Position numbers and translations under genes: made by a program. 31,347 nt of DNA from a virus. The notes below the pieces were generated by a model. That model ran no database searches. It had not been told where the DNA came from and saw only the letters and a program-made list of their open reading frames with translations. Below, piece by piece: positions 5,938-15,786 of this stretch. The stretch spans positions 1 through 31,347 of the IMG/VR virus record IMGVR_UViG_3300031227_000255; one strand, written 5' to 3'. Position 1 is the first letter of the stretch; every line of letters begins with the position of its first letter.

Positions 5938-6162
5938 TTAACCCTCCTTTTTTTCCACTTTTACTAATCTTCCCCACTCCCCCGCCGCTAAAACCAAAGT
6001 AGGGGAAGGTTCTTCCGCCATAATTTCTTGATCTTTTATTTGTTTTGATACAAGACTAACATCAATGAGGGATAGATCTCCGTTAGGGGTTATTGTTAAT
6101 CGGTCTGCTTCTTGACGTATAGCACCATACTTTTTTGTTTCTACTTCGTATAAATATCTCAT
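5938..6162 (-). CDS. Hypothetical small protein coupled to the polymerase
   Basis: This 74-residue protein follows the DNA polymerase with an ATGA overlap, so its translation depends on the polymerase gene. It starts with a strand (MRYLYEVETKKYGAI) and ends with an acidic-basic tail (VKVEKKEG). Nothing in it matches a family I recognise. Coupling suggests it is made in step with the polymerase. Confidence 0.6.
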   Translation of the reverse strand: MRYLYEVETKKYGAIRQEADRLTITPNGDLSLIDVSLVSKQIKDQEIMAEEPSPTLVLAAGEWGRLVKVEKKEG

Positions 6163-8075
6163 TTTTTATATCTCTCCCCGGCCCATCCTTCAGCGTCTAT
6201 CGGACAACCCTTCGCCCACGAAGGTAATTTGCACATAAGGTCAATCATTTCCTCGAGGGAATGTTCTTCATCCCCCTCACAAACAACTTCGTCGTGCACT
6301 GATAACACTAAAGAATAATTAGCCTTTTCAAGTTTTAACATAGCCCATGCCATAAGATCTCGAGCAATAGCCTGAACAATGTTTTCGGTTAATTTGCCTC
6401 CGTAAGTGAAGGTCTTTTTAAAACTTTTAGATTCGCTATTAACTGTATAGTAATAAAGAGAATCTTTTGTCTTACCCCATTTCATTTCTTTTTGTTCCGT
6501 GCCGGGATAATAATAAGCAAGATCTCGACCGGAAGGTAATCGACAATAAAGAAACTTCCCTTTGATGTAGAAAGTAACAGGACCACAATGACAGGGTTTT
6601 TTATGCCTAACTGTATATTTGGCCGCACGTTCAATATCATTCCAGAAAGAAACCACTTTTTTATATTTATTCCTGTACGCAGTAACGGCTATTTCTGAAA
6701 GTTCTTTACTAACCTTAACCCCAAACCCTTCGCAAGTTACTTTAAATCTAGGGGCGGCCATTTGAAAACCACATCCGAGGACCGTGTGTTTTCCAACAAG
6801 CCTTTCTTTTTTATCTTTACTTGTTAAGGCAATATTTTTATAAATCACTTTAGCCATATCAACGTATATGTCTTTTTTGTCGTGAAATAATGTTACTGCG
6901 TCTCGCTGTTTAGCAACCCACATTAAAACCCGGGCTTCGATCGCTGAATAATCCGCGGCCAACAATGTTTTATTCTTTGGAGCAACCACGACACCCCGAA
7001 TACAAGTCGATAAGGCAGATATAGGATTACTGTACAACGTACTCATAAACTCAGCGTCGCCACTTTTAATAACATCAATACATACATCTTGATCAATGTC
7101 CCCACCCCTCGGTAAATTTTGAAATTGAACGGTTTGACTTGTCCACCGTCCGGTTGACGCACCATGATAAATTAAATGGTTACGGATCCTTCCATCATCA
7201 CAGCAAGAATCAATAACCCGACTGAATTTAGCAACAGAGCTACGCCCGTACTCAAGACGCAATATAAGAAGACGACGAAGCTCGTCGGGTATATCATACG
7301 TTAAAGCCTCTTCTACATCGTCAGCGCTAACCCCGGCCATATCAATTCCTGAATAGTTTTCATTGATCCAATTTTTTAATCGTACAGTTTGTGTAACCGC
7401 GAGAATCTTCTTATTTGTTATTTCTGCTACTTCCTTATTACATTCTATCGAAAGATCTTTACATATTGTCATAGCTTCTTGGGCTAATTCTGTATCAACA
7501 CAAACTCCTCGGTCGTTAATATCAAGTGTTAATTGGAATATATCTTGTTCGATCGGCACAAGATCTGGTAAACGTCTGTCAACTTCTCGTTCTGTCTTAA
7601 CGTCTTGACGACAGTATTCCATAAATTTTTTATAATCTTCCGGAAAATCTTCCGGACGATTAAATTTACCGTCTTTGTTTGGTACAGAAAATAATCGAAT
7701 TAACCGCATACCTTCAAGTTCTTTTTGTTCCGGTAGCTTTAAGGCCCTAGCAAGCTTTTCCAGTTTCCAAGGAAGCCCGTGGGCGCACGCCATTGCCATC
7801 GTACACATAAAAGGTGGAGGTGTCTTTTTCCAAACGTGTTTCCAAACCGAGTATTCAAAAAAAGCATTATGGGCGACGAAGGTATATCCTTTTTCAATCC
7901 AGCGGTCGAATATAGGAGGATAATAATTACCCGGCTCAACTAATACCGGTCCGTCATTTTGAGCGTATGCAACACATAATATCTCAGTAGAAGGATCCTT
8001 ACAGTAACGTCCCGCCCCGCTCTTCCTTATATTTATGCGGGATAGTGTTTCAAAATCTAGGTGTATTTTATTCAT
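6159..8075 (-). CDS. Family A DNA polymerase with 3'-5' exonuclease
   Basis: This 638-residue protein has the proofreading domain first: exo I LDFETLS (D7, E9), exo II AHNAFFEY (around 68-75) and exo III YCRQD (D158). The polymerase domain follows: STGRWTS...QNLPRG template-binding motif (307-324), motif A AADYSAIEAR (D375), motif B RLVGKH..LGCGFQM (425-439) and motif C VHDEV (593-597). There is no 5' nuclease domain, as in phage replicases. I start at the ATG at 8,075, which has AAGGA upstream and an ATGA overlap with a small gene; a frame extending to 8,153 runs through that gene and is rejected. In motif B the usual Tyr-Gly is replaced by Phe, which may affect nucleotide selection. Confidence 0.92.
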   Translation of the reverse strand: MNKIHLDFETLSRINIRKSGAGRYCKDPSTEILCVAYAQNDGPVLVEPGNYYPPIFDRWIEKGYTFVAHNAFFEYSVWKHVWKKTPPPFMCTMAMACAHGLPWKLEKLARALKLPEQKELEGMRLIRLFSVPNKDGKFNRPEDFPEDYKKFMEYCRQDVKTEREVDRRLPDLVPIEQDIFQLTLDINDRGVCVDTELAQEAMTICKDLSIECNKEVAEITNKKILAVTQTVRLKNWINENYSGIDMAGVSADDVEEALTYDIPDELRRLLILRLEYGRSSVAKFSRVIDSCCDDGRIRNHLIYHGASTGRWTSQTVQFQNLPRGGDIDQDVCIDVIKSGDAEFMSTLYSNPISALSTCIRGVVVAPKNKTLLAADYSAIEARVLMWVAKQRDAVTLFHDKKDIYVDMAKVIYKNIALTSKDKKERLVGKHTVLGCGFQMAAPRFKVTCEGFGVKVSKELSEIAVTAYRNKYKKVVSFWNDIERAAKYTVRHKKPCHCGPVTFYIKGKFLYCRLPSGRDLAYYYPGTEQKEMKWGKTKDSLYYYTVNSESKSFKKTFTYGGKLTENIVQAIARDLMAWAMLKLEKANYSLVLSVHDEVVCEGDEEHSLEEMIDLMCKLPSWAKGCPIDAEGWAGERYKK

Positions 8076-8209
8076 AACATCCTTAGTTGAGTAGTGGGGG
8101 CTAGGTACACCTTGTTTGAATTGTAGCACCCTTTGTCCATGTGGCGATCGCACCTCACATGAACGGGTTCTACATTCGCCCGCGGCTCCTCATGCCCCCA
8201 ATCTACCAT
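8072..8209 (-). CDS. 45-residue coupled small protein
   Basis: A short frame links the PGDYG gene to the polymerase with no spare bases. Its ATG overlaps the upstream stop as TAATG, and its TGA overlaps the polymerase start as ATGA. The product begins MVDWGHEEPRANVEPVHV and contains a possible metal-binding patch CDRHMDKGC (two Cys, one His). Such perfect double coupling is strong evidence for a real gene despite its size. No family recognised. It explains the otherwise unexplained 133-base gap. Confidence 0.6.
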   Translation of the reverse strand: MVDWGHEEPRANVEPVHVRCDRHMDKGCYNSNKVYLAPTTQLRML

Positions 8210-8472
8210 TATTTAAAAAGATCTCCTTTTTCCTCGACGTAAATTTTTTCAAATTCGTCTTTAGCTATAGGATAAGGGTACCCACGAGCATCAATGGCTA
8301 AATAACCATCTTTACAGCTTAATTTTCCTTCACTCGTTTCAACCGTAAATTCAGTATTGATACGGATCGCCCGCGTCAATACTTTTTTACGGAATTTTCT
8401 CGCGTTAGAAAAATCAGGTAAATGCTCTTTTGAAAAAACGGGTGTTTCTATTTGAGAGGTATCTTCGCTCAT
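8209..8472 (-). CDS. PGDYG-domain protein
   Basis: This 87-residue protein has a basic middle (FRKKVLTRAIRI) and a C-terminal half matching the small PGDYG domain of phage and bacterial proteins: CKDGYLAIDARGYPYPI followed by KDEFEKIY. The domain's biochemical role is not established; members often sit in phage replication or early regions. The ATG overlaps the stop of the putative Tad1/Acb2-like gene as ATGA, and its own stop overlaps the next start, so four genes here are read in tight succession. Confidence 0.65.
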   Translation of the reverse strand: MSEDTSQIETPVFSKEHLPDFSNARKFRKKVLTRAIRINTEFTVETSEGKLSCKDGYLAIDARGYPYPIAKDEFEKIYVEEKGDLFK

Positions 8473-8795
8473 ACTTTATGTTCCCCTTCTACCTCGCGAT
8501 CTTCCCTGTCTTTTGTTCGTGCTTCCAAACAATTCAAAGCGTTTTGTAAAGCAAGAATAGCTTGTTGATTTGCTTCACAATTAAACTTTGATCCTTGATA
8601 AAACTCAAGACGGGATTTAGCCGCTGAGATAACTGTTTCAACGAAAGCCCCATTAGGTTCTTTTCGTTGGGGACCGCGACCTAACGGCCCGTTTTGCCAA
8701 GAGATATTTAATCCCACACCGACAACAAGCCCCCCTGTAGGGTTGCCATCAGTGTCATTCTCATTAATAATTTTACATTGATCAATTCCGTTCAC
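8469..8795 (-). CDS. Tad1/Acb2-like putative cyclic-nucleotide sponge (anti-defence)
   Basis: This 108-residue protein has a Gly-rich beta-strand (LVVGVGLNISWQNGPL, 23-38), the NGAFVETV turn-helix (48-55), a helix ending RLEFYQ (62-67), then FNCEAN..AI..LQNAL (71-87) and the terminal signature RTKDREDREVEGEH (93-106). Strand, NG-x-E helix, RL.F.Q, C.aN..Ai and RT..R..R.VEG.H in this order match my recollection of the Acb2/Tad1 hairpin domain. Proteins of that family bind and sequester signalling nucleotides (gcADPR for Thoeris, cyclic oligonucleotides for CBASS). It starts at a GTG overlapping the SSB stop and lies in the early block, where anti-defence proteins are expected. Ligand residues cannot be verified by eye; the alternative is a related helical-hairpin protein of unknown role. 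Confidence 0.5.
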   Translation of the reverse strand: MNGIDQCKIINENDTDGNPTGGLVVGVGLNISWQNGPLGRGPQRKEPNGAFVETVISAAKSRLEFYQGSKFNCEANQQAILALQNALNCLEARTKDREDREVEGEHKV

Positions 8796-9322
8796 TATAG
8801 ATCACCATTTTCATCGTCGGGCAAATCATCAAAATCATCATCCGGACGTACCCGGCTGATCAACGGTTCACCCTCTTCACATTTTTGAATATTTCGCACA
8901 GAAACGGATACGCCGTTCTTGCCCTTGAATGACCAAGCATAACAAGAAACTGTTGCGCGAGCATAACATCCCGGATAAAATTCTTCCGGATCCTCAAGAG
9001 GTTGACGTTTTGCATCAACAATTCCTGGTTTATACTTTCCACACTTACCATTGATATAAAACATCCCCTCATATTCCGGACGATCGCTGTCGTCACCGTC
9101 GAGAGTAGGAAGCATGAGCCCTTTAGGGGCGTTTTTTGGCCACTTTTCTTGTATTGTAGCCCCAACAAGATCATCGAGAGCGTCAAACTCTGTATCTTTC
9201 TCGAAGATCATACCAAGACCATACTTGCCCTCGTCGTTTGGCTCAAAAACATGAGGGAAAGTTACCCTAAATATAGGGGTCAACAACGAGCCATCTTTTT
9301 TGATTATGAAGTCTTTTTGCAT
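8795..9322 (-). CDS. DUF2815 single-stranded DNA-binding protein
   Basis: This 175-residue protein matches DUF2815, the phage ssDNA-binding family related to T7 gp2.5: TPIFRVTFPHVFEP near residues 15-29, YGLGMIFEKDTEF (34-46), an internal YEGMFYINGKCG, the conserved FYPGCYARATVSCYAW (about 115-131) and an acidic tail (DDDFDDLPDDENGD). The OB-fold would coat ssDNA and the acidic tail would recruit polymerase and helicase. The ATG lies after an AAAAAGGAAAA site. Its gene order (DUF2800, DUF2815, polymerase) is a standard phage replication module. Confidence 0.88.
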   Translation of the reverse strand: MQKDFIIKKDGSLLTPIFRVTFPHVFEPNDEGKYGLGMIFEKDTEFDALDDLVGATIQEKWPKNAPKGLMLPTLDGDDSDRPEYEGMFYINGKCGKYKPGIVDAKRQPLEDPEEFYPGCYARATVSCYAWSFKGKNGVSVSVRNIQKCEEGEPLISRVRPDDDFDDLPDDENGDL

Positions 9323-9359: not shown

Positions 9360-9668
9360 TTAAAGTTCTGCTAACTCGGCTGCCGGATCTTTTGTAGTTT
9401 CTGAATCAGGCGCGTCGTCTTTTGGCGGATCATTAATCGGATCCGACAATTTTGCGCCTTGTGAAGAATCATTACCCCCGTCGTTATCATCATCAGGAGG
9501 GGGAGGAGGATCTTCAACGTGATCTTCTACCAATTCAGCATCCCGAATATAACAATACGATGCATTAAAATCATCTTTTAATGCTTGCGTTTTCTTTTGG
9601 GGATCCAGCGTGTTCCAAATACGCTCAAACCCGTCGAGAGCTACTTGTTGTGGTGTTTTTTCGGCCAT
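9360..9668 (-). CDS. Acidic, Pro-rich hypothetical protein
   Basis: This 102-residue protein has a folded N-terminal helical part (about 1-45; VALDGFERIWNTLDPQKK) and a disordered tail dominated by Pro, Asp, Asn and Gly (EDPPPPPDDDNDGG). The start is the ATG at 9,668, with GAGGAG upstream; a frame from 9,701 would overlap the DUF2800 gene. It lies between the nuclease gene and the SSB gene, and the acidic tail could bind a basic replication partner, as SSB-type acidic tails do. This is inference; no family recognised. Confidence 0.6.
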   Translation of the reverse strand: MAEKTPQQVALDGFERIWNTLDPQKKTQALKDDFNASYCYIRDAELVEDHVEDPPPPPDDDNDGGNDSSQGAKLSDPINDPPKDDAPDSETTKDPAAELAEL

Positions 9669-9672
9669 AATT

Positions 9673-10824
9673 TTAAATCTCCTCAAAGTCTTCTTTTGCA
9701 CTTGTTAAACTAATTGGCTCGCCTTTGCTATCCGAGGTGACGAGCTTATACCCCGTGTCCGGTTTAAACGCGTATTGTACTACTTCTTTTTTACCGATCA
9801 CCTTTTCCATCTTCGACGGTGATTTTAATTTCTTTGGCTCAAACATTTTACTACCATGTTTACCTTCAAAATCGGCAAGTACCGCGTCTTCTGAGGACCA
9901 TTTTCGGTGTCCTTGGGATGTTACTAATTTATACCCGGGAATGTTTTCACCTTGGTAAGCTAACTCCTTAGCATAATCCACAACTTTAGTAATGAACGCC
10001 TTAATGAATTCTTGGTTATCGAGTACCTTAACAATTTGTTTAATTGTTAAACGACTTACCGGCGGTGCATCGGTAAAGTCTTTCGCCACGAGAGATTGAG
10101 CTTTCTCGTTGGCGGTCTTACACGTATTAAATACCGGGCAGTACGTCTTATGACACCAATCCCCGGCGATCAATGGGGCTTTTGGAGATAGAGCGGCTTT
10201 TGCTTTAACTGCTAACTCTTCACGAAAACTATTCATGTACTCAGCGTCTACGGCGTAAGTGCTAACATGATCATCACCCATACGCGGTTGAACAATACTA
10301 ATTTCAATTTCCTTTACATCCTCGTCAATATAATAGCGAAGGATATAATAGAGAAGTTGTTTATTTTCGTAAGACGATATCTTTTTTCCGGCCCCATATT
10401 TAAGATCAAACCCCATGATTTTCTCATAGGGCCAAATGATGATACAGTCCGGGGTTGCAAATAAAAGTTTATGGACCTCGGGGATCTCGATTTTTTTCTC
10501 GACGATCATTATAGCCCCCGGCCTCATATGAGACCGAACATCTTCTACGTACTCCCACACTGCATCAATCATTTCTTCATCGACGGTGATAATGTGCTCC
10601 CCCTCAGATTTTTCAACCCCCTCAAAAGATGCAAGCTTTTCATAATCCCAATCCTTTAAAAGACAATCCGCGGACAAATCATGCGCTACTGTACCTTCTG
10701 CCATATAGCTACTTGTAACAACGATACAGTTTGCTGTGGCTTTCACGGATCCGGGACAATTCCACCATCGTTCACACGAGGATGCTGCAAGTTTAGAGTG
10801 GGCTGGGAAAGTTTTAGATATCAT
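9673..10824 (-). CDS. DUF2800 Cas4-like PD-(D/E)XK nuclease
   Basis: This 383-residue protein matches DUF2800: opening AHSKLAASSCERWWNCPGS (8-26), AEGTVAHDL (42-50), and a nuclease core TPDCIII (D126) and GFDLKYG (D140, K142). A late Cys group WCHKTYCPVFNTC (C224, C229, C235), together with C23 or C17, would hold an Fe-S cluster as in Cas4/AddB-type nucleases. It would process DNA ends in recombination or replication. The C-terminal third (about 250-383) contains repeated Lys-rich segments and may bind DNA. It overlaps the SNF2 helicase gene by 11 bases. Confidence 0.88.
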   Translation of the reverse strand: MISKTFPAHSKLAASSCERWWNCPGSVKATANCIVVTSSYMAEGTVAHDLSADCLLKDWDYEKLASFEGVEKSEGEHIITVDEEMIDAVWEYVEDVRSHMRPGAIMIVEKKIEIPEVHKLLFATPDCIIIWPYEKIMGFDLKYGAGKKISSYENKQLLYYILRYYIDEDVKEIEISIVQPRMGDDHVSTYAVDAEYMNSFREELAVKAKAALSPKAPLIAGDWCHKTYCPVFNTCKTANEKAQSLVAKDFTDAPPVSRLTIKQIVKVLDNQEFIKAFITKVVDYAKELAYQGENIPGYKLVTSQGHRKWSSEDAVLADFEGKHGSKMFEPKKLKSPSKMEKVIGKKEVVQYAFKPDTGYKLVTSDSKGEPISLTSAKEDFEEI

Positions 10825-12514
10825 CGTCGTCCTCCGCTAAAACTTCTGCGAATTGTTCGTAACATTTTCCAATCTTCTTACCCTCAAGAGTATCTAACTT
10901 CGTACCGCCGAGAGCTTGAATAGTGGTTTTACAACGATTCTTTCCAACGCCGTTAGGGAATTTTTTACAAATATCCGCGGCGAGCGCTCGAACCTGATCA
11001 ATGGTTATTTCCCCATCATCAGGATCTTCTACCGTGGGTTCCGCTTCGGCTTGCTTCGTAACTTTCTTTGTTACCTTTTTTGTTCCCGCTTTTCCCGGCG
11101 CGGTAGTTACAGTCTCGGAGGCGGGGGCGTCGTTAAGAACTTTGTCAAGCGTGGCAACTAACGTCGATATTGCTTTTTCGAGTTTTTCAATTTTTTCTTC
11201 TAAGTACATTTGCTTTTCTCCTGTTTTTTGGATTATCCGATTCATTATTTGTTCTTTCCAACGCGCAGTACCCATCATCTTAGCCTCAAGCGTAGCTTTT
11301 ATGACGAGGATATATGCGTTGACCATGTATGTTTGACCAAATCTTTTTAGCCGCCCAATACATTGTGTTATATCTGTGGGGGACCAAGAAGGTTCTACAA
11401 ACACCGCCGTATGGCAAGCATATTGTAGTCCGTCAAGGCCCTCTCCACAGGCTTGTATCTGTCCAAGAAAAAGTCGGCACGAGGGCTCTGTGTTGAATTG
11501 TTCAACAATCCCGGCGCGTTTCTGTGCGGGTACGGTACCGTCGATATAAACCGGATTTTCTTTAGACAGTGATTTTAATAAAGCATTTTTAACTGTTCTA
11601 TGATGATAAAAAATAACAATCTTAGAGGTCTCTTCCAGAAGATCTTCTATAAAGGGAAGGGATTCTTTTATTTTATATTTTGCTAAAGCTTGTCTGATAC
11701 GCGCGGTCTCCCCCAAAGTAAATAATTCTATGTCACGTTCTCCGGCTAACTCTGCCGTTTTTAATTCTTCTTCCCGTATAATTTTTTTGGCTTCAGGCGT
11801 ACATTCAAGTTCAACAGTATCTATCATAGCGTCGGGTAATTCTTTTAAAACTTCTTGCTGTTCTCTTCTAAGCATAAATGGACGTATGCGGTTTGCGAGG
11901 TCCCCTTCATGTGAAGCGCCGTTGACATTAAGACCATATTTATCTTCGTAAGCTCCGCAAAAGCGATACGCAAACCGCAAATACGAAGTGTAAGGGGCAA
12001 TAAGGTCGGGCCGCGTGGATGATAGGAGAGAATGTAAATCAATGGGACGATTTTTAATAGGTGTCCCAGTTAAGAACCACATTTTATCTGTACGGGAAAT
12101 CAATCCTCGAGGGTGAAGGATCCTTTTAGTGCGGTGAGCACGTGTGTTTTTAAGTTTATGAGATTCATCACAAATAATCAAACCAAAATTCATAGTCATT
12201 AATTGCTTAAAAACCTCTCTACCTCCCCGGCTTATAAGAGCATAATTTATAATGTAAAAATCCCTATTTAATGGTATGGGGTCCTTCCCGTTCTTTATAA
12301 TTTTAATGTATTGTCTTCTGTGAGTGATCCACATTTCAATCTGGTTAGCCCAATTATGTTTTACCGAAGCTGGACAAACAACGAGGACAGGGAAGCTGTC
12401 AAGCGCACAAAGAGCTTGTGCTGTCTTCCCTATACCTACATCGTCAGCTAAGAGCGCGTATTTACGCTCTTGTAAGAATTTAACTCCAATTTTTTGATAA
12501 TCTCTTAGTTGCAT
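10814..12514 (-). CDS. SNF2-type DEAD/DEAH helicase with C-terminal extension
   Basis: This 566-residue helicase has the Walker A ADDVGIGKT (23-31), the DESH box (116-119), a motif III region FLTGTPIKNRP (about 148-158), and the C-terminal RecA domain with KIVIFYHHR, GLDGLQ and QCIGRLKRFGQ motifs. It is a phage SNF2-like translocase or branch migrator. After residue 435 there is a coiled coil (MYLEEKIEKLEKAISTL), a Lys/Thr-rich linker (KKVTKKVTK) and a small globular domain (about 500-560). An internal ATG at M436 is preceded by AGGAG, so a separate 131-residue C-terminal product is possible. It overlaps both neighbours, indicating operon coupling. Confidence 0.85.
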   Translation of the reverse strand: MQLRDYQKIGVKFLQERKYALLADDVGIGKTAQALCALDSFPVLVVCPASVKHNWANQIEMWITHRRQYIKIIKNGKDPIPLNRDFYIINYALISRGGREVFKQLMTMNFGLIICDESHKLKNTRAHRTKRILHPRGLISRTDKMWFLTGTPIKNRPIDLHSLLSSTRPDLIAPYTSYLRFAYRFCGAYEDKYGLNVNGASHEGDLANRIRPFMLRREQQEVLKELPDAMIDTVELECTPEAKKIIREEELKTAELAGERDIELFTLGETARIRQALAKYKIKESLPFIEDLLEETSKIVIFYHHRTVKNALLKSLSKENPVYIDGTVPAQKRAGIVEQFNTEPSCRLFLGQIQACGEGLDGLQYACHTAVFVEPSWSPTDITQCIGRLKRFGQTYMVNAYILVIKATLEAKMMGTARWKEQIMNRIIQKTGEKQMYLEEKIEKLEKAISTLVATLDKVLNDAPASETVTTAPGKAGTKKVTKKVTKQAEAEPTVEDPDDGEITIDQVRALAADICKKFPNGVGKNRCKTTIQALGGTKLDTLEGKKIGKCYEQFAEVLAEDDDDI

Positions 12515-13662: not shown

Positions 13663-13691
13663 AGTATACTATTAAACTATGAATTTGTCAA
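13663..13691 (-). promoter_or_regulatory. Strong sigma-70 promoter for the replication genes
   Basis: On the minus strand TTGACA (13686-13691, perfect -35) is followed by exactly 17 bases and TATACT (13663-13668, five of six matches). The -35 lies inside the last codons of the prim-pol/VapE gene. It should drive the small membrane protein, HNH, helicase, nuclease, SSB, putative anti-defence and polymerase genes. Confidence 0.75.
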
Positions 13692-15786
13692 TACTTTTTG
13701 CGTAGAAAGTTTTTCGGTGTCCGCCGTCTTGATATTGCTGCTTAACAAAACCAAGGGCTTTTAAGATTCCAGCAATACGTAACGCTTCACGAGGAGAAAA
13801 CATTGTAGTATTGCCCCCAATACAACTAACAAAAATATCAATGGGTTGTGTAACACAAGCAAATTTCTTATTGTCGTAGTAGTCAAAATAATGTTGGTCC
13901 AACCAATTATCAATAGTATGAAGCCAAGGATCGTCAATCTGTCTTTTTGCTGTCTCTTCTCTGGACATTGCTTCGATCTTTTTGTCATACACATAAATTG
14001 ATTCCCCTTTCATATAACATACATATGCTTCCGCGAGAAGTTGATCCCTCTCTTCTCTTAATAAGGGGATGTTTACTTCATTAATGAGTACCGGCCAGTA
14101 ACGCCTATTCTCATGATCTTTTAAATACCCTTCTGTCTCTGCGTTAACTGTACCAATAAAAATATTCTGTCTAGGGTAGTTAACAGCATTGCGCCCGTAT
14201 GCCGGACGGCAACGATCAACGCAAGTAGTTATAAAACCTTTCATAGCTTTACTCTCATACTTAGACACGGCATACATTTCAGCAAGTTCTACTATCCAAT
14301 TCCCTTGAATTAGATCAATAGAATCTTTGTGTTTAACATTTATATGCGCGTCGGTAAACCATGGATCACTTAGTATCTTACATAAAAAACTTTTACCTCT
14401 ACCTTGAGGACCTTCTAATACAAGAACGTGATCAAATTTACATCCGGGTTGAAACACACGTGATACCATAGCAATTAATGTCTTACGCCCATAAAATCGA
14501 ATAAGCTCAGTATCTTTGGCCCCGCAGATCCGCGATAGCCAATTATCAATGCGCGGTGCCCCATCCCATTTTATACTCCGGACAAAATCTCGGACCGGGT
14601 GATACGCGTTATCAGAAGCGATCGTTACAACAGCCTCATGAATATGGGATGTTGGTGGATCGTAATCCCAATTAAGGGAAAGGTGATGTTTAACTTGAAT
14701 CGCGTCTTCGTCGGTCCAGTGCGCCGCAGTTTTACGCCAAGGTGGAGCCATAACAAATTCAATACGGTTAGTGAATAAATTATATTGAAGTTTATTTTTT
14801 AGGAGAGGGGTGTAATCTTTTTTTAATCCATCAGCTTTAGAAAGAATTTGAACAGTGTTGTGGAGAGTAACTCTAAAACGTTTTCCGTTCGGCGTCTTAT
14901 GCCAAATTCTTTTTTCAGTTTTTACCATTGTTTGTTCGGGTTGTTGGTATTCATCAAATTCATTCTCGATAGATTTACATCCAGTTTGTTTATATCCGTG
15001 TTGGTACGCATTTTTAACTTTAACTTCGAGCTCGTCGTGTGTCCATTCAGGTTGACACCGAGGATTAAAAAATTGACACATTAACTCGTGGGTCTTTTCC
15101 CATGAGAGGCCATAATCTTTTCCAAGAGCGGCGACGGTGAAGGTACGACTATCTCCGCCCGCGCCTTGTATAGCGGGTGTCCCATTTGATACAATATCAA
15201 CGAATTTTTTGATGTTCGTCGGGTGATTTGTGAGTAACCCTTCCGCAACAACGTCGATATCATCCCCTCGGGCGAGTAAAGCCAAGAGAACGTCCGGGCA
15301 TTTTTGGATAACCGAGGGCGAATACCTTTTGATTTCATAATGTTTATCTACCTCCTCATTGTAACTTCCGGCCGCGGTAATAAAATGCTGTTTAAATTCA
15401 AGCCCGGGATAATCTTTAAGGCTTCCTTTAATTTGCACTTGCTCCAACTTAGAAAAATAAATATGATACCCTCCCGATGGAGTGGACACGGTAAATGTTT
15501 GGTTAACTAAAGCTACTGGAATTTGAATGTCTTGAAATAATCGTGATAGGGGTTTATCATTTTCTGGTTGGAAGCTTCGTTTGTCTACATCAATAACAAC
15601 GTATCTTCCTCTTAATAGTACGCCGTAATTTTGATCGCTTACTGAGAAAAGGGGATCGAACGGCGTATTTTTAAAACCTCGTCGTAATGGTTTCTTCGAA
15701 TAACCATCACATTGAAATAACGTAAGCCCCGCGTCCGTGTATAGGTCGAGGAGCTCACGCTTTACTTTATAAGTCTTCGGCTTCAT
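13672..15786 (-). CDS. Prim-pol / VapE-family primase-helicase
   Basis: This 704-residue protein has an N-terminal bifunctional primase-polymerase domain (about 10-170): YGVLLRGRYVVIDVDKR (D66, D68), the STPSGGYHIYF strand with H108, and LEFKQHFITAAGSY. A PriCT-like helical region (about 205-265) follows. The C-terminal VapE/SF3-type ATPase has Walker A LEGPQGRGKS (457-466), Walker B-like NWIVELAEM (496-504), sensor FIGTVN (543-548) and an Arg finger NRRYWPV (560-566). It would prime and unwind at the phage origin. Its ATG overlaps the tandem-HTH gene by 20 bases. The next promoter lies in its 3' end. Coupling primase, helicase and regulator is typical of this module. Confidence 0.92.
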   Translation of the reverse strand: MKPKTYKVKRELLDLYTDAGLTLFQCDGYSKKPLRRGFKNTPFDPLFSVSDQNYGVLLRGRYVVIDVDKRSFQPENDKPLSRLFQDIQIPVALVNQTFTVSTPSGGYHIYFSKLEQVQIKGSLKDYPGLEFKQHFITAAGSYNEEVDKHYEIKRYSPSVIQKCPDVLLALLARGDDIDVVAEGLLTNHPTNIKKFVDIVSNGTPAIQGAGGDSRTFTVAALGKDYGLSWEKTHELMCQFFNPRCQPEWTHDELEVKVKNAYQHGYKQTGCKSIENEFDEYQQPEQTMVKTEKRIWHKTPNGKRFRVTLHNTVQILSKADGLKKDYTPLLKNKLQYNLFTNRIEFVMAPPWRKTAAHWTDEDAIQVKHHLSLNWDYDPPTSHIHEAVVTIASDNAYHPVRDFVRSIKWDGAPRIDNWLSRICGAKDTELIRFYGRKTLIAMVSRVFQPGCKFDHVLVLEGPQGRGKSFLCKILSDPWFTDAHINVKHKDSIDLIQGNWIVELAEMYAVSKYESKAMKGFITTCVDRCRPAYGRNAVNYPRQNIFIGTVNAETEGYLKDHENRRYWPVLINEVNIPLLREERDQLLAEAYVCYMKGESIYVYDKKIEAMSREETAKRQIDDPWLHTIDNWLDQHYFDYYDNKKFACVTQPIDIFVSCIGGNTTMFSPREALRIAGILKALGFVKQQYQDGGHRKTFYAKSIDKFIV

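Follow-up and report, generated by a model that had tools for sequence, protein, structure and literature searches.

A predicted Tad1-type nucleotide sponge encoded between the single-stranded DNA-binding protein and DNA polymerase genes of an uncultivated phage

The Acb2/Tad1 family of phage proteins includes two distinct layouts. In Tad1, an N-terminal antiparallel sheet, reviewed as having four strands, is combined with two long C-terminal helices, and the pocket is formed by conserved loops, the C-terminal tail and the hairpin of the partner chain, whereas Acb2 carries a short N-terminal helix and lacks the N-terminal beta-sheet (PMC12043709). According to published work on Panoptes, a decoy-nucleotide defence can be set off by CbTad1 and ColiTad1 (PMC12657218) and, therefore, carrying a Tad1-type sponge can also be a liability.

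The gene described here lies in a stretch of 31,347 nucleotides, referred to below as the window, which constitutes positions 1 to 31,347 of the IMG/VR record IMGVR_UViG_3300031227_000255 and belongs to a virus of bacteria. It occupies positions 8469 to 8795 on the minus strand, begins with GTG and encodes a protein of 108 amino acids for which a beta-sheet followed by an alpha-hairpin is predicted. A sequence-only reading of the window had associated this gene with the Acb2/Tad1 hairpin domain and had proposed that counter-defence would rise together with replication. Sequence searches and predicted fold agree, and on this basis we assign the protein as a Tad1-type, and not an Acb2-type, member of the family. 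From the same comparisons and the gene order we consider it likely, with some confidence, that the gene encodes a multimeric Tad1-family sponge for gcADPR and/or cyclic oligonucleotides that is made together with the replication proteins.

Relatives were collected from IMG/VR by a pattern scan, which yielded 55, and by a wider scan, which yielded 188; a family profile was built from 43 relatives and conservation was tallied over 93 distinct proteins. With 188 encoded relatives, the open reading frame is real, far beyond chance. When the window protein alone was compared with the PDB using phmmer, it matched CmTad1 (8kbb, 1.4e-5) and CbTad1 (7uav, about 0.007), and in a PHROGs search it fell within PHROG_2428 (E 1.5e-18), a family listed without a function. 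The profile of 43 relatives, run against all PDB chains, recovered Tad1 at 5.3e-16 to 5.7e-13 and gp184 (8y6v) at 1.2e-7, and up to E=1 it matched nothing else, including no Acb2 chain. The proposed search against PF24729 (Acb2_Tad1_hairpin) and Tad1 profiles gave a divided answer: the window protein itself did not match PF24729, either at E<=1 in a single-sequence Pfam search or at E<=10 in a six-frame search, while 25 of the 43 relatives matched it at E<=0.1 (best 4.3e-8) and the family profile found the Tad1 chains. Among ten relatives scanned singly against the curated cut-off of 27 bits, eight fell just below it, one (L002) narrowly exceeded it with 27.2 bits and one was unmatched. A single-sequence search of NCBIfam with the window protein gave no Acb2/Tad1 match. 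A WAC_Acf1 match (E 0.1) was dismissed as noise.

An AlphaFold (AF2) model of the monomer, with a mean pLDDT of 82 and a pTM of 0.71, predicts a beta-beta-beta-alpha-alpha layout with strands at residues 8-13, 19-26 and 29-33 and helices at 48-67 and 74-99; the loop around residues 40-50 is poorly modelled. This agrees with the pattern of strand, NG-turn and two helices recognised earlier from the letters. The predicted N-terminal strands and paired C-terminal helices conform to the Tad1 layout, with three strands predicted where the review gives four for Tad1 (PMC12043709), and the three N-terminal strands are at variance with the sheetless Acb2 layout. In a Foldseek search of the PDB with this monomer model, the first 20 matches were all Tad1, with probability 1.0, and noise lay below them; the TM-scores to Tad1 are moderate, at 0.5-0.66. 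The best match in the viral library BFVD was A0A4V0NRU7 of Vibrio phage VP-1 (TM 0.80).

The C-terminal motif RTKDREDREVEGEH fits the signature RT..R..R.VEG.H noted earlier, which proved to be nearly invariant among the 43 relatives: R93, T94, R97, E103 and G104 are invariant, V102 and H106 are each present in 42 and R100 in 38. There are 27 invariant columns in the alignment of the 43 sequences and, across the 93 distinct proteins, the elements D, P, GG, G, I, WQ.GPLG, R, PNGAFVE, R, YQ, F, C, N, A, L, A, L, RT, R and VEGTH are each kept in at least 90%. Ten positions are common to the window protein, the 43-sequence family, CmTad1 and CbTad1, namely G49, R62, an aromatic at 66, Q67, an aromatic at 71, N76, A79, R93, R97 and G104; Q67 and the aromatic at 71 are nearly invariant in the 43-sequence family and the remainder are invariant. 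By position, Y66, N76, R93 and R97 of the window protein align with F82, N92, R109 and R113 of CbTad1, which we take to be residues of the gcADPR pocket. The location of the family's invariant residues fits the published description of the Tad1 pocket (PMC12043709).

The same alignment bears on the choice of ligand. The near-invariant loop RKEPNGAFVE is particular to this clade and, except for NG or G, is absent from CmTad1 and CbTad1, and another record, IMGVR_UViG_3300007076_000018, carries two diverged clade members, L077 at about 36.5 kb and L117 at about 32.2 kb, which could mean two ligand specificities. Both observations could be reconciled with a Tad1-clade sponge that binds another signal, for example a type III CRISPR cyclic oligoadenylate or an undescribed nucleotide, in place of gcADPR or a CBASS cyclic oligonucleotide. 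Nevertheless, the hairpin and C-terminal tail positions common to CmTad1 and CbTad1 are retained, which favours the same pocket, and we regard the alternative as unlikely. It would be similarly surprising if this clade, marked by its near-invariant WQxGPL...RKEPNGAFVE loop and by two diverged copies in at least one phage, formed a sponge lineage of its own among uncultivated phages and recognised a signal nucleotide other than gcADPR and those of CBASS.

For a sponge of gcADPR and/or cyclic oligonucleotides, which we prefer, the protein would assemble into a multimer as Tad1 does, probably a trimer of dimers (hexamer). Host immune signals, whether gcADPR isomers, cyclic dinucleotides and/or cyclic trinucleotides, would be bound in pockets to which the conserved loops, the C-terminal tail and the hairpin of the partner each contribute; with these signals sequestered, the effectors of Thoeris, CBASS or similar systems would stay inactive while infection proceeds.

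The genes discussed below all lie on the minus strand of the window. The replication cassette includes a VapE-like primase/helicase (13672..15786; PF05272, 3.1e-68), an SNF2-type helicase (10814..12514; PF00176, 3.3e-30) and a DUF2800/PD-(D/E)XK nuclease (9673..10824; PF10926, 1.9e-67), followed by an acidic protein of 113 amino acids (9360..9701), an open reading frame that found no family match in Pfam, PHROGs or NCBIfam searches. Next comes the Enc34-type single-stranded DNA-binding protein (SSB) of 175 amino acids (8795..9322; PF10991, 4.9e-32), and from here the genes form a continuous chain of overlaps. The SSB stop and the sponge start share one base within TAGTG (...GAT CTA TAG/TG AAC), the last base of the stop codon being the first of the GTG. 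The sponge stop overlaps, in an ATGA, the start of a small phage protein of 87 amino acids (8209..8472), whose own stop overlaps through TAATG with a possible open reading frame of 45 amino acids (8072..8209); this putative frame in turn overlaps through ATGA with the likely ATG start, at 8075, of a family A type DNA polymerase (6159..8075), which shows 35-37% full-length identity to annotated phage DNA polymerases. The order of SSB, sponge and 87-aa gene was thereby borne out by the open reading frames, and the TAGTG overlap, already remarked on in the sequence-only reading, recurs in a second assembly. The latter, IMGVR_UViG_3300035698_013095, is a longer record of the same virus with DNA 99.98-100% identical at the locus over up to 11.9 kb; it demonstrates that the locus is not an assembly artefact and adds no independent phage to the comparisons. 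The GTG start is further supported by relatives (L003, L004 and L007) that open with MNAI.C. Within the C-terminal codons of the SSB, 4 nt upstream of the GTG, lies the heptamer GGTGATC (8800..8806), and its complementarity to the 3' end of 16S rRNA suggests that the sponge gene may own a ribosome-binding element. Translation of the sponge would probably follow that of the SSB through the overlapping stop and start codons and, if so, the sponge would be made as replication begins.

Among the relatives, the neighbours of the sponge gene differ almost everywhere. Pfam and PHROGs searches of 123 neighbouring proteins detected helicases including DnaB, terminases, portal, holin, methylases, Mom, RusA, topoisomerase and others, with every family seen at most twice and most about once, and no SSB or replication gene was consistently linked to the sponge among these neighbours. 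A PF10991 SSB occurs in two of the 47 records that carry the sponge gene, one belonging to the same virus and the other being L037, in which about 7 kb separates the SSB from the sponge gene. Since many of the records are fragmentary, a record that lacks the SSB counts for little, but its absence from the flanks carries weight. Among the independent relatives examined, none has the sponge adjoining an Enc34-type SSB. Any link between counter-defence and replication is, consequently, one phage's arrangement: the proposed tie to a replication operon holds for the gene layout of this virus and did not hold as a property of the family.

The reciprocal comparison, from the side of the cassette, was made with annotated phages carrying a related polymerase, since a pattern scan for relatives of the window SSB and polymerase found the same virus only. 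All six of these phages carry a PF10991 SSB, and the polymerase directly follows it in four while other genes intervene in two. The order helicase, DUF2800 nuclease, SSB and polymerase is the same in two of the compared genomes (L067 and L068) as in the window, which adds the Tad1-type and 87-aa genes. Given the variable neighbours in the relatives, and related cassettes that mostly run from SSB to polymerase without it, the simplest reading is that the junction between SSB and polymerase in a core replication operon holds the Tad1-type gene as accessory cargo. The sponge gene would then have entered this junction of a standard cassette. Such promiscuous placement is as expected of a counter-defence gene and hard to reconcile with a fixed role in replication. 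That the Tad1-fold protein works instead within the replication machinery, for instance as an SSB that responds to nucleotides or as a polymerase accessory factor, is very unlikely, for although the gene sits inside an overlapping chain of replication genes and the clade is strongly conserved, its surroundings elsewhere are mixed, no independent relative has the SSB near it, and related cassettes possess SSB and polymerase without a Tad1-type gene.

The 87-aa gene downstream, assigned to PHROG_36774 (6.8e-6), had earlier been taken for a PGDYG gene, an identification that is not supported, as no match to PF14083 was obtained. Six or more further uncultivated phages (L154-L159) encode small proteins of the same family in unrelated genomic settings, and neither an Enc34-type SSB nor a Tad1-type gene adjoins these relatives; the 87-aa gene is, therefore, probably a second accessory gene, as judged from its sequence relatives.

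The survey adds a clade of no fewer than 93 distinct Tad1-type proteins; almost all come from uncultivated phages, and they are poorly recognised by Pfam and carry no assigned function in PHROGs. In the phage isolate collection, close relatives are confined to seven Vibrio phage records. Should its members bind immune nucleotides, a sponge would be present in many environmental phages for which no counter-defence has been annotated. Through its position, the window copy offers, for one virus, a candidate case of counter-defence timed by a replication operon.

Some members depart from the usual size or source. In gp184 (PDB 8y6v_I, 230 aa) it is the C-terminal 60 residues that match the Tad1 hairpin profile, which suggests that larger phage proteins can also contain the hairpin as a domain; the window protein likewise matches PHROGs 23843 and 22140, of 200 and 230 positions respectively. 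A homologue in a contig from a Candidatus Amesbacteria metagenome-assembled genome (MAG) (L058:3127-3480) carries an internal duplication of the segment GGAVHGVGLEIKWQEGP. Other clade members were found in MAG contigs labelled Phycisphaerales, Omnitrophota (two contigs, one bin), Lentisphaerae and Actinomycetes (L057 and L059-L062), and these contigs are possibly prophages or binned phage contigs.

Among the described proteins, Acb2 (Pseudomonas phage PaMx33 gp24; T4 Vs.4, 7uq2) has in common with the window protein the hairpin domain that defines PF24729, but 7uq2 is a weak fold match to the model (rank 38, E 2.4). The Vibrio phage VP-1 protein A0A4V0NRU7, named in UniProt as an Acb2/Tad1 hairpin domain-containing protein, belongs to the same clade with 48% identity, although its gene lies in an Ackermannviridae genome of about 150 kb, near a topoisomerase gene and rIIB, with no adjoining SSB. 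CbTad1, from a Clostridium botulinum prophage (7uav, 7uaw, 8smd, 8kbe, 8kbf), shares the layout of beta-sheet and hairpin and, despite only 16-19% identity in fold alignments, its equivalents of R62, the aromatic at 66, Q67, N76, R93, R97 and G104 are kept in the window protein. The best match in both sequence and fold is CmTad1 (8kbb apo, 8kbc with cAAA and 8kbd with cAAG). It differs in its length of 132 aa against 108 aa, in an identity of about 27% over the fold alignment and in lacking the RKEPNGAFVE loop, whereas it shares the FQEGPI/WQNGPL...NG loop ([WF]QxGP[LI]...NG), FQ/YQ, a C-REN-like turn and the RTxDRE...EG tail. The window protein itself is new and its kind is already known: it belongs to a large, mostly uncultivated and unlabelled clade of Tad1-type proteins.
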